Positions 21,193 through 50,111 of a DNA stretch of 64,000 nucleotides are shown one piece after another. How positions within the stretch are numbered: position 1 is the first letter of the stretch; each line of letters begins with the position of its first letter. Made by a program: the position numbers and the translations under genes. Source of the DNA: Ascidiaceihabitans sp. (GTDB lineage Bacteria; Pseudomonadota; Alphaproteobacteria; Rhodobacterales; Rhodobacteraceae); contig JAOKHV010000007.1 of NCBI GenBank assembly GCA_028248455.1, positions 1-64,000 of the forward strand. The letters run 5' to 3'. The notes under the pieces were generated by a model. It had not been told where the DNA came from and ran no database searches. It worked only from the letters and a program-made list of their open reading frames with translations.

Positions 21193-23019
21193 TTAATCTT
21201 CCCACCACCATACTTCTGGCATGTAGTATGGACCATCGCCGTAGATCGGCAGGTTTTCAGGGTACTTCATTTCTTTCACATGTGCGATACGACCTGTTGT
21301 AAACTGCCAGAACGGTATCACATATCGACCCGTCATCAATGCGCGGTCAAGACCACGCACAGCTGCAACAAAATCGCCTTGTGATCCTGCTTTAAGCATT
21401 GCATTGACCATTGCATCCACTGCTGAACTTTGTGCGCCCATTAGGTTGCGACTGCCCTCCATTGAAGCAGACGGGCTGCCCCAATAGAACTGTTGCTCGT
21501 TGCCCGGTGAAAGCGACAATGAGCGGCGGTAATATGTGACGTCAAAGTCAAACTTACCCGTGCGCTCCACGTACTGCGCATTGTCCACTGTTTCTACTTC
21601 AGCTATTATACCTAGACGTTTCAGTGCACCAAGGTACAGATCAGCGATGGCTTTATGCTCAGACTTACCTTGAGCAAGTAGGATCGTCAGGCTTAGGCTT
21701 TCACCATCAGCGTTTTGCATCATGCCATCAACTGGCTCCCAACCGGCTTCTTTGAGCAAAGCAATTGCGTTGCGAAGGCCCTGACGATTGCGTTCAGAAC
21801 CATTAGATACAGGAAGCACGTAACCTTCCATCAGGCCCGGAGGCATATCTGCTGCGAAAGGTGCCAACAGCTCTGCGGTGCGGCCCTGTGCTTGTCCTTC
21901 TTGCATCGCAAGGAGCGAGTTGGAGAAGTAAGACGTGATACGTGGCTGTGCTCCGCCTGTGAGGGCACCATTGATGAACTCAAAGTTGAAGGCTTGAATA
22001 AGCGCCTCGCGTACACGCCAATCGTCGAATGGGGCGCGACGTGAATTCATAACAAAGCCGGTCATACCCGATGGCTTTTTGTGCGGAATCTCTGTTTTGA
22101 CAACATTACCAGCAAGGGCACGTGGGAACTCGTAGCGGCTGTTCCAGCGTTCCGCGTTAAATTCGCGTTGTGCGGATACTTGGCCAGCTTTGAAGGCTTC
22201 GCCTTGCGCGGTAGAGTCGCCGTAGAAGTCCAAAGTGATTTGATCGAAGTTATTCGTGCCTCTGCGCAGTGGCAGGTCAGCACCCCAATATTTCTCGTTA
22301 CGTGTTAACTGGACAGAACGGCCAGCATCATACTTGGTAATCACATATGGGCCAGAACCCATAGGAATGTCTGCGATTTTAGCATCGGCAAACTCTTTAC
22401 CTTTCCATTGGCTTTTTTGCAGGATCGGACGCATCCCTACCAGAAGAGCCAACTCGCGGTTTTCTTCACCAAAGGTAAAGCGAACGCTAGACGGTCCAGT
22501 TTGTTCAACACTTGAGATTTTGGACCACAAACCACGATAGCGTGGGTGACCTTCGGTGCCTAAAGTTTCAAAGCTCCAGATGACATCTTCTACCGTGATA
22601 GGGGAATCATCAGAGAACGTCGCTTCTGGGCGGAGTGTGAATTCGACCCAAGTGCGGTCTTCATTGGTGTTAATTGATTCGGCAATCAGCCCATAAAGTG
22701 CAAACGGCTCGTCTTGAGTGCGGCCCATTAGAGATTCATGTGTGAAAAATCTAAGCTGCCATGGGACCGTTCCTTTGGCGATATAGGGGTTAAGCGAATC
22801 AAAACCGCCTGTATTTCCCAAAACAATAGTGCCACCTTTAGGTGCATCGGGATTTGCGTAGGGTAGGGACACAAAATCATGTGGAAGAGCAGGTTCGCCG
22901 TACATAGCTATGCCATGAGCTGATTCTGCATGTGCTGTAGAATCGATAAGAATCGCTGCAGTCGTGAGTATTGAGGCTGCGTAAACCCCTCTAATTTTTT
23001 GGAAAAATACTGATCTCAT
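21193..23019 (-). CDS. Extracellular solute-binding protein, family 5 (oligopeptide ABC transporter)
   Basis: Signal peptide MRSVFFQKIRGVYAASILTTAAILIDSTAHA, then GGTIVLGNTGGFDSLNPYIAKG and FTLRPEATFSDDSPITVEDVIWSFE. Likely start 23019. Confidence 0.9.
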   Translation of the reverse strand: MRSVFFQKIRGVYAASILTTAAILIDSTAHAESAHGIAMYGEPALPHDFVSLPYANPDAPKGGTIVLGNTGGFDSLNPYIAKGTVPWQLRFFTHESLMGRTQDEPFALYGLIAESINTNEDRTWVEFTLRPEATFSDDSPITVEDVIWSFETLGTEGHPRYRGLWSKISSVEQTGPSSVRFTFGEENRELALLVGMRPILQKSQWKGKEFADAKIADIPMGSGPYVITKYDAGRSVQLTRNEKYWGADLPLRRGTNNFDQITLDFYGDSTAQGEAFKAGQVSAQREFNAERWNSRYEFPRALAGNVVKTEIPHKKPSGMTGFVMNSRRAPFDDWRVREALIQAFNFEFINGALTGGAQPRITSYFSNSLLAMQEGQAQGRTAELLAPFAADMPPGLMEGYVLPVSNGSERNRQGLRNAIALLKEAGWEPVDGMMQNADGESLSLTILLAQGKSEHKAIADLYLGALKRLGIIAEVETVDNAQYVERTGKFDFDVTYYRRSLSLSPGNEQQFYWGSPSASMEGSRNLMGAQSSAVDAMVNAMLKAGSQGDFVAAVRGLDRALMTGRYVIPFWQFTTGRIAHVKEMKYPENLPIYGDGPYYMPEVWWWED

Positions 23020-23054
23020 TTGTGCAACAATCCCTTTATGCCCTTGTTTTATTA

Positions 23055-23209
23055 ACCTTTGGCGCAATTGGGGTTACATGCAAGCCGAAATTTTTAGCTT
23101 GGCCAAGGACCGCCAAAGGTTTATGCAGATGTTACTGCTCGATAGGTTTCTTGCCTGTATGAAACCTGCCTCAATAACTTTACGCCAGCTTCGTGCTGGC
23201 GTTTTTTTT
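23055..23209 (+). ncRNA. Candidate structured small RNA ending in a Rho-independent terminator
   Basis: Perfect 10-bp stem ACCTTTGGCG(23055-23064)/CGCCAAAGGT(23111-23120); hairpin AGGTTTC(23144-23150)/GAAACCT(23161-23167); terminator ACGCCAGC-TTCGT-GCTGGCGT with T8. No + strand CDS upstream to terminate. Confidence 0.45.
23182..23209 (+). terminator. Rho-independent terminator
   Basis: ACGCCAGC (23182-23189), loop TTCGT, GCTGGCGT (23195-23202), T8 tract 23202-23209. Confidence 0.88.
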
Positions 23210-23356
23210 GGCTTATCGGAATTATGGTTGAGTGCAACTCGACTAAGATGCCTTAGCCGCGTAAATGCTAATCTGCGTGAGGCGGAAAGTCCGGTTCACG
23301 ACATATTAGATTTCAGCCTTGGACGGCGTTATTTGAATAGCTCGACAGGAGGCACC

Positions 23357-24064
23357 TTAAACTTCGGGTTCTGTTGGGTCTTTTGCATTGGGATAGACCA
23401 GCCCTGCAGAGATCACCAACTTTGCGGCGTCTTCCACACTCATGTCTAGCTCGATCACATCCATGGTAGGAACGAACAACAAGAACCCAGAAGTAGGATT
23501 TGGTGTTGTAGGTAAGAAAATCGACATAGCGCCACCATCTTTACCCGCGCGGTCAGAAATTTCAGCCTTCGCAGTAGTAGAGATAAAACCGATGGCCCAA
23601 ATCCCTTTGCGCGGGTATTCGATCAAACAGGCTTTTTCAAACGACCGCTCGGTCTGGGCAAATACGGTTTCAGAGATCTGTTTGATGCCTGAATAGATCG
23701 AGCGCACAACCGGCGTACGTTCAACGATGCCTTCAGCAAAACGTATCAGCGAGCGCCCCATAAAGCCTTTGGCCATCCAGCCAACGATGATTGTGAACAC
23801 CAAGAATATAACAACACCGATGCCGCGCACATCGATTTGGACATCACGCTCTAGCCCTAGCAGGTCTTGGATCATCTTGTCGGGTTGGTAAGAATTAGGG
23901 ACCCAAGGCAGGACCGCACCATCAATCCAACCGACAACGCTCCAGATCAACCAAACTGTAAGCCAAACGGGGGCAATAACCACCAATCCGGTCAAAAAAG
24001 AAGATCGAAGGCGTGCTAGTAAGCTAGCGCGGCGAGGTGTTTCTAAATCGAATGGGGTGTTCAT
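23357..24064 (-). CDS. DUF502 family membrane protein
   Basis: 235 aa. FLTGLVVIAPVWLTVWLIWSVVGWID, IPLVRSIYSGIKQ-like VRSIYSGIKQISETVF and LPTTPNPTSGFLLFVP. Confidence 0.88.
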   Translation of the reverse strand: MNTPFDLETPRRASLLARLRSSFLTGLVVIAPVWLTVWLIWSVVGWIDGAVLPWVPNSYQPDKMIQDLLGLERDVQIDVRGIGVVIFLVFTIIVGWMAKGFMGRSLIRFAEGIVERTPVVRSIYSGIKQISETVFAQTERSFEKACLIEYPRKGIWAIGFISTTAKAEISDRAGKDGGAMSIFLPTTPNPTSGFLLFVPTMDVIELDMSVEDAAKLVISAGLVYPNAKDPTEPEV

Positions 24065-48560: not shown

Positions 48561-50111
48561 CTACGTAGGTAGGTAGATATTAAATCGCTCGCGGATAGCG
48601 GCATCCAGCACCGGATCAAGCTGTGCCTTTGAACGATGGCTCAAGATTTCTTCTTTGCGTGCAATTGCGTTTTCGATCAAATCAGGCTTGTCTTTCTCAG
48701 CCCATTCCTTTGGTGACATCCGGTTCCCAAAGGTCGGATAGACACAATCCGTCTGCATCCTAGCAAGCGTTTGATCCGTTCCAAGGTAATGACCAGGTCC
48801 GCCCATGCAAACCTCAGCAATCTGATCCAGCGCCATTGTTTCGTCATTCACCTCGACGCCGCGCACGCAACGCAACGCTTGGCCAATAATGTCATCGCCC
48901 AATATGAGGGATTCATGGCAGAACCCTAACAGTGACGCGTGCATCCCCGCAGCCTCATAAACCATGTTTACACCTGACAGCCCGGCCATGACGTTTGAGC
49001 ACATCTGTTCCCAACCTGCCTGCATGTCCGGCATCTTGGAATCCGTGGCACCTGCCGCTGCACCGCCCGGTAGATCATAAAAACGGTGCATCTGGCCGCA
49101 ACCCGCAGTCAGCAATGCCTGTTCGCCAGAACCGATAGACATAGCTCCTGTGCGCAAATCCAGTCCGAAAGGCCATGTGCCAAAGATCGCTGGCGCACCT
49201 GGTTTTACTGCGTTCACATAGACCAAACCTGCCAAACATTCAGCTACGGCTTGCACGATCGCGCCCGCAATTGTGGAGGGAGCCGTGGCACCAGACATGC
49301 CTGCTGATAGCAGGAGAACGGGCATGCCAGCCTTGATGCATTTTTCCATAACTTGGCAGGATTCGGTTGCGAACTTCATTGGTGGCACAACAAAACAGTT
49401 GGAATTGGACATGAATGGACGTTCGCGCCATTTGTCTTCGCCCCCTGCAATCATGTGCAGCATTTCAATTGCGGGTGCCACGAACTCGGGTTCGGAAAAG
49501 GACATGCCAATGTGTTTGGTCGTTCCCGTGCAGGTCGCAAAGACGCTGTTGTATTCCATTTCACAATTGTCTGTGATGTCACGCGCAACCATCGGGCGTT
49601 GGCAAAAATGGATGTTGTCTAAGGTATCACAGATATGGGCCGCGTCATGCAGGTCTTGGATCGTGGATTCACGATAATGCCGGCCATGGACGTCTACCAA
49701 ATGAACTGCAGCACCGGCAGTGCCGTAATGGACGCGGCTGCCACCCAAATCCATGTCGTTAAGGCCGTCACGGCTGTGTAATGTCATGGAGCGGTTGGCT
49801 TTGGCTATTGTGTCCTCAACCAACGCACGGGGGAAACGGATGCGACCGTCTTCGCCCTCGATGGCACCAACACTTGTTAGGTAAGCCGCACCTGAGGGCG
49901 GTGCATCCGCCAGCCCGATGGTTTCAAGGGCGGTTAGTGCTGCTTCGTGAATGTTCTGCACATCGATATCTGTGAGGGGATTATAGCGTCCACCGTCCAT
50001 ACCGGGGCGAACGGGGCGCATGTTTGCTGCTAAAGGTGCTGCGCGGGCTGCGCGGCGCGCGGCGCGGCCACCGCTGCGGCCAGCGTTACGTGATGGGGTT
50101 TCGTCGTTCAT
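48561..50111 (-). CDS. Trimethylamine methyltransferase (MttB) superfamily protein, non-pyrrolysine type
   Basis: 516 aa. HEAALTALETIGLADAPPSG, VHYGTAGAAVHLVDVHGR, AIVQAVAECLAGLVYVNAVKPGAPAIFGTWPFGLDLRTGAMSIGSGEQALL. No in-frame TAG. Arg-rich N-terminus. Confidence 0.93.
   Translation of the reverse strand: MNDETPSRNAGRSGGRAARRAARAAPLAANMRPVRPGMDGGRYNPLTDIDVQNIHEAALTALETIGLADAPPSGAAYLTSVGAIEGEDGRIRFPRALVEDTIAKANRSMTLHSRDGLNDMDLGGSRVHYGTAGAAVHLVDVHGRHYRESTIQDLHDAAHICDTLDNIHFCQRPMVARDITDNCEMEYNSVFATCTGTTKHIGMSFSEPEFVAPAIEMLHMIAGGEDKWRERPFMSNSNCFVVPPMKFATESCQVMEKCIKAGMPVLLLSAGMSGATAPSTIAGAIVQAVAECLAGLVYVNAVKPGAPAIFGTWPFGLDLRTGAMSIGSGEQALLTAGCGQMHRFYDLPGGAAAGATDSKMPDMQAGWEQMCSNVMAGLSGVNMVYEAAGMHASLLGFCHESLILGDDIIGQALRCVRGVEVNDETMALDQIAEVCMGGPGHYLGTDQTLARMQTDCVYPTFGNRMSPKEWAEKDKPDLIENAIARKEEILSHRSKAQLDPVLDAAIRERFNIYLPT

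Follow-up and report, generated by a model that had tools for sequence, protein, structure and literature searches.

A small-RNA gene of Ascidiaceihabitans, very probably an ortholog of StsR, with predicted pairing to the dcw leader

What does an intrinsic terminator end when no gene precedes it on its own strand? In the 64,000-nt stretch of Ascidiaceihabitans DNA analysed here (the window), such a terminator stands between a gene for a peptide-type solute-binding protein (SBP) and a DUF502 gene, both on the minus strand. An earlier note on the region had read it as the end of a small RNA (sRNA) of 100-160 nt, divergent from the transporter gene and folding into three stems. The three stems lie where it had placed them, the T-tract is indeed confined to the + strand with no + strand gene before it, and the two flanking genes are as described. 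That the element is an sRNA gene in divergent orientation also stands, but its extent does not: the RNA is predicted at about 76 nt, and the first stem is not part of it. The features of the locus are these:

21193..23019, minus strand: SBP_bac_5 gene (peptide-type solute-binding protein; Pfam 1.2e-64), constant divergent neighbour
23055-23064/23111-23120, no strand: inverted repeat ACCTTTGGCG/CGCCAAAGGT, the first stem of the earlier note; lineage-specific, over the promoter region, outside the sRNA
23098..23102, + strand: -35 element CTTGG of the sRNA promoter, with RpoHI/RpoHII-like TTG (column statistics, 148 sequences)
23121..23126, + strand: -10 element TTATGC (consensus TTATAA) of the sRNA promoter (column statistics)
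23134..23209, + strand: stsR-like small RNA gene, predicted 5' end at 23133-23134, 3' end within the T-tract (conservation, folding, R. sphaeroides ortholog L224)
23135..23141, + strand: 5' anchor CTGCTCG; the dcw (mraZ) leader contains its complement CGAGCAG
23144-23150/23161-23167, + strand: hairpin 1, AGGTTTC, 10-nt loop, GAAACCT (folding; invariant in all relatives)
23152..23169, + strand: TGCCTGTATGAAACCTGC, the principal pairing region, made up of the loop of hairpin 1 and its 3' side; its complement in the dcw leader/UpsM is GCAGGTTTCATACAGGCA
23182..23209, + strand: intrinsic terminator, 8-bp stem ACGCCAGC-TTCGT-GCTGGCGT (23182-23202), then T to 23209
23357-24064, minus strand: DUF502 gene

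The limits of the RNA were set from its promoter. Upstream of it, relatives conserve the RpoHI/RpoHII-like form CTTGG-N18-TTATAA: across 148 sequences the -35 columns hold T at -34 (100%), T at -33 (91%), G at -32 (97%) and G at -31 (89%), TAT at -11 to -9 is conserved in 95-99%, and the consensus reads CAAACTTTTAGCTTGG from -46 to -31 and TTATAA around -10. In R. sphaeroides, RpoHI/RpoHII promoters are marked by TTG at -35 and TAT near -12, and the 148 relatives match both by sequence. With the two boxes at 23098-23102 and 23121-23126 the transcript start is placed at 23133-23134; since they lie inside or beside the unconserved first stem, the RNA comes to about 76 nt rather than 100-160. The RNA so defined (ACTGCTCGATAGGTTTCTTGCCTGTATGAAACCTGCCTCAATAACTTTACGCCAGCTTCGTGCTGGCGTTTTTTTT, 23134-23209) consists of a 5' tail, a single hairpin (23144-23167) and the terminator, and folds at -23.9 kcal/mol, where shuffled versions average -12.9 (z = -4.3; 0 of 200 shuffles as good). 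The window's genome encodes Hfq and an RpoH-family sigma factor, the latter scoring 268 bits, below the model cut-off of 323.

Two side observations concern the promoter region. The 10-bp inverted repeat (23055-23120), perfect over the divergent promoters in the closest relatives only, is perhaps a lineage-specific regulator site. In most relatives, CAAACTTTT beside the sRNA -35 gives TTGAAA when the minus strand is read, with a conserved TA 17 nt away, a pair that could be a back-to-back promoter of the SBP gene; the window has degenerate versions of both boxes (23084-23102; consensus -50 to -31 in relatives).

The element proved to be widespread, within one family. A DNA search of 61 genomes, including 24 outside the window's own family, found the region in 35, all of them within the family, and in none of the 24 outside it; in distant members the match contracts to about 23134-23209. 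Of 397 family genomes sampled more widely, one per genus except for the window's own genus, 387 contain the sRNA, among them 347 of the 349 of good quality. A pattern scan of named genomes gave at least 118 loci; most of those listed are labelled Rhodobacteraceae, Paracoccaceae, Rhodobacterales or genera thereof, the rest being Alphaproteobacteria bins with no finer name, and the genera listed include Paracoccus, Ruegeria, Sulfitobacter, Roseobacter, Rhodovulum and others, also Neomegalonema. Ruegeria pomeroyi carries the RNA (L054). Eight genomes (G173, G216, G224, G294, G313, G330, G386 and G395) show two matches to the sRNA query each instead of one, possibly paralogs or partial copies. The neighbourhood is as constant as the list above implies: the SBP gene is the divergent neighbour at 145 of 157 loci examined, its match being absent despite room at seven while the locus ends too soon at five.

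Conservation within the RNA is divided between its two halves. Nucleotides 1-40 are practically unchanged across 148 distinct sequences; because these were selected by nt 8-37 (the middle 30 nt, two substitutions allowed), the independent evidence for invariance lies in nt 1-7 and 38-40 and in the BLAST-selected set. The terminator forms a perfect hairpin in 143 of the 148, with 43 different arm pairs: as read from the aligned letters, its stem covaries, with compensatory change on both arms. The earlier note had proposed conservation of the stems upstream of the transporter gene as a check; hairpin 1 and terminator are kept in all 30 aligned sequences, and the first stem is not kept beyond the four nearest relatives.

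The Rfam scan that it also suggested left the element without a match above gathering score; run against Rfam 15 at the gathering score and then at E <= 10, it gave chance-level matches only. Among these, SorY, RyhB, MicX and Hrs12 likewise combine a hairpin, a terminator and a U-tract; at 15-22 bits against gathering scores of 55-111 they were rejected as identities. The family is missing from Rfam, and the RNA therefore goes unannotated in these genomes. Elsewhere in the window, a PYLIS_3 match at 48950-49049 (minus strand; 42.4 bits, cut-off 38) falls within a 516-aa ORF (48561-50111, minus), MttB-type methyltransferase-like and open without a stop, and probably reflects plain protein homology rather than pyrrolysine insertion. 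Downstream of the sRNA, the intergenic stretch 23210-23356 contains GAGGCGGAAAGTCCGGTTCAC, which recalls the 5' motif of RNase P RNA and is conserved in the closest relatives only; this stretch has no Rfam match.

A known RNA of R. sphaeroides fits the description. StsR (formerly RSs0827) is 72 nt long and under RpoHI/RpoHII control, with induction strongest in late stationary phase; it binds UpsM RNA and the leader of the dcw genes, as well as rpoE mRNA, and is known to slow cell division under stress. The R. sphaeroides genome in our set was recognised by its TspO protein, the query being checked against PDB: in G093 (4.6 Mb, 7 contigs) TspO lies next to a crtB-like gene and differs from PDB 8e7w at one residue only, alanine where 8e7w has threonine. 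We take that threonine to be the studied A139T mutant of TspO. This genome has a single copy of the element (L224), 92% identical to the window RNA over 76 nt and adjoining an SBP gene of the same type. In L224, 72 nt counted from ACTGCTCGATAGG, that is from the conserved A (ACTG), reach the fourth U; in the window and R. sphaeroides alike the stretch that begins at the conserved A and ends in the T-tract measures 72-76 nt (ends predicted), against the published 72 nt of StsR.

Because StsR has been described as a 72-nt RNA under RpoH control that targets UpsM/dcw, the element is very probably a trans-acting sRNA gene orthologous to it; the comparison is with published properties, not letters, and the grounds for the identity are accordingly size, promoter type, target and uniqueness. 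StsR and the window RNA are both about 72-76 nt long and single-copy, with an RpoHI/HII-type promoter, an intrinsic terminator and complementarity to the UpsM/dcw leader. The R. sphaeroides copy differs in the letters of the terminator stem and in the single-stranded linker, and the window RNA is known from sequence alone. The other published target of StsR, rpoE, comes from the literature only. A literature search with the RNA's own letters or with RSP_0827 returned nothing relevant.

UpsM (RSs0682), a 206-nt leader-derived RNA at another locus, carries with the dcw 5' leader the conserved complementary sites: it is a target, not the same RNA. The mraZ leader is 268 nt long and UpsM makes up its first 206 nt; the published start site of UpsM puts it at 1445-1650 of L228 in the G093 set. 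There the block GCAGGCTTCATACAGGC (1498-1514; UpsM nt 54-70, 215 nt upstream of mraZ) is complementary to nt 20-36 of the RNA with one mismatch, and CGAGCAG (UpsM nt 107-113) to nt 2-8. Under stress RNase E cleaves UpsM and leaves a 3' fragment of 130 nt, in a reaction that needs Hfq and RpoHI/HII; the length of this product places the cut near UpsM nt 76, and so between the two pairing blocks.

Both blocks recur across the family. Of 30 family dcw leaders, 25 have the main site as an unbroken complementary run of 15-18 nt, three more (28 of 30 in total) as one of 11-12 nt interrupted by one mismatch, and the other two lack it; in shuffled leaders the longest complementary run averages about 7, and three dcw leaders from other families give runs of 6-7, the background level. 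CGAGCAG occurs in 26 of the 30, usually about 35-40 nt after the main site. From this conserved complementarity, 15-18 nt plus 7 nt, we predict base-pairing of the RNA with UpsM and with the dcw 5' leader. When the R. sphaeroides RNA is co-folded with UpsM, the ddG is -11.3 kcal/mol, matched by 69 of 200 shuffled RNAs; the energy alone is therefore not discriminating, and it is the length and conservation of the complementary run that carry the case. In the window's own genome a contig end truncates the dcw leader; the target is therefore seen only in relatives, and the window's congeners carry the site. A second conserved target was considered and rejected: in genomes with three sites, the extra GGYTTCATACAGGC matches, the dcw leader and the RNA's own antisense set aside, lie in or beside unrelated genes that differ between genomes, with one site common to two genomes.

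Could the RNA nonetheless be the longer one, taking in the 10-bp stem with the two later hairpins as a new sRNA of 100-160 nt? The whole stretch (23040-23215, + strand) does fold beyond its shuffles (z = -2.6; 3 of 200 shuffles do as well) and the first stem pairs perfectly along all 10 bp, but that perfection is limited to the window and its four nearest relatives, with 6 of 10 pairs in the next two and 1-7 of 10 elsewhere; the stem straddles the conserved -35 and -10 boxes, and in distant relatives conservation starts abruptly at the predicted start, all of which makes this extent very improbable. Slimmer still are the chances of a cis-acting 5'-UTR element of the SBP gene on the minus strand, a reading to which the constancy of that divergent neighbour and the folding of the minus strand (z = -3.1) lend something. 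The T-tract works on the + strand only, and promoter boxes, start and terminator are ordered for that strand; the 40 conserved nucleotides lie more than 100 nt upstream of the SBP start, the RNA persists at several loci without an SBP match, and its pairing target is the dcw leader.

The divergent sRNA might, finally, be a family-wide RNA other than StsR that shares its length, RpoH-like promoter and UpsM target by chance. In its favour is that the StsR letters were not directly compared; yet R. sphaeroides has one copy only, complementarity to UpsM is the very property for which StsR is named, and a second RpoH-dependent 72-nt RNA with the same target is unlikely, so that we give such a coincidence little credence and retain orthology with StsR.

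By analogy with R. sphaeroides, we would expect stress to induce the StsR-like RNA of the window, and the RNA to reduce expression of dcw. As the R. sphaeroides literature suggests, it would be transcribed by RpoHI/RpoHII when cells are under stress or in stationary phase; the loop of hairpin 1 would contact ATACAGGC in the dcw leader, and the duplex would extend through the 3' side of the hairpin, the pairing block in the RNA including GCCTGTAT, while the 5' tail would pair with CGAGCAG further down. The leader could then refold and be cut by RNase E with Hfq, so that UpsM and dcw mRNA would fall and growth and division would slow.

What is added here is how far the RNA extends through the family, together with its invariant functional half, its constant gene neighbours and its complementarity to the dcw leader in two blocks, though the 2021 NAR paper on StsR may already report part of the conservation. 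An anonymous terminator thereby becomes a regulator with a name, for which RpoH is the predicted trigger and the dcw leader the predicted target, and the 40 invariant nucleotides, set against a drifting terminator, give a clean and testable definition of the functional part. On balance we favour the view that StsR, rather than a Rhodobacter speciality, is a near-universal, almost letter-invariant RNA brake of the Rhodobacteraceae, marine roseobacters included, with one conserved target, the dcw operon leader, engaged through two-block pairing, and with rpoE and others as later or local additions. The link from stress to cell division described in one phototroph is probably common to hundreds of genera, many of them marine.
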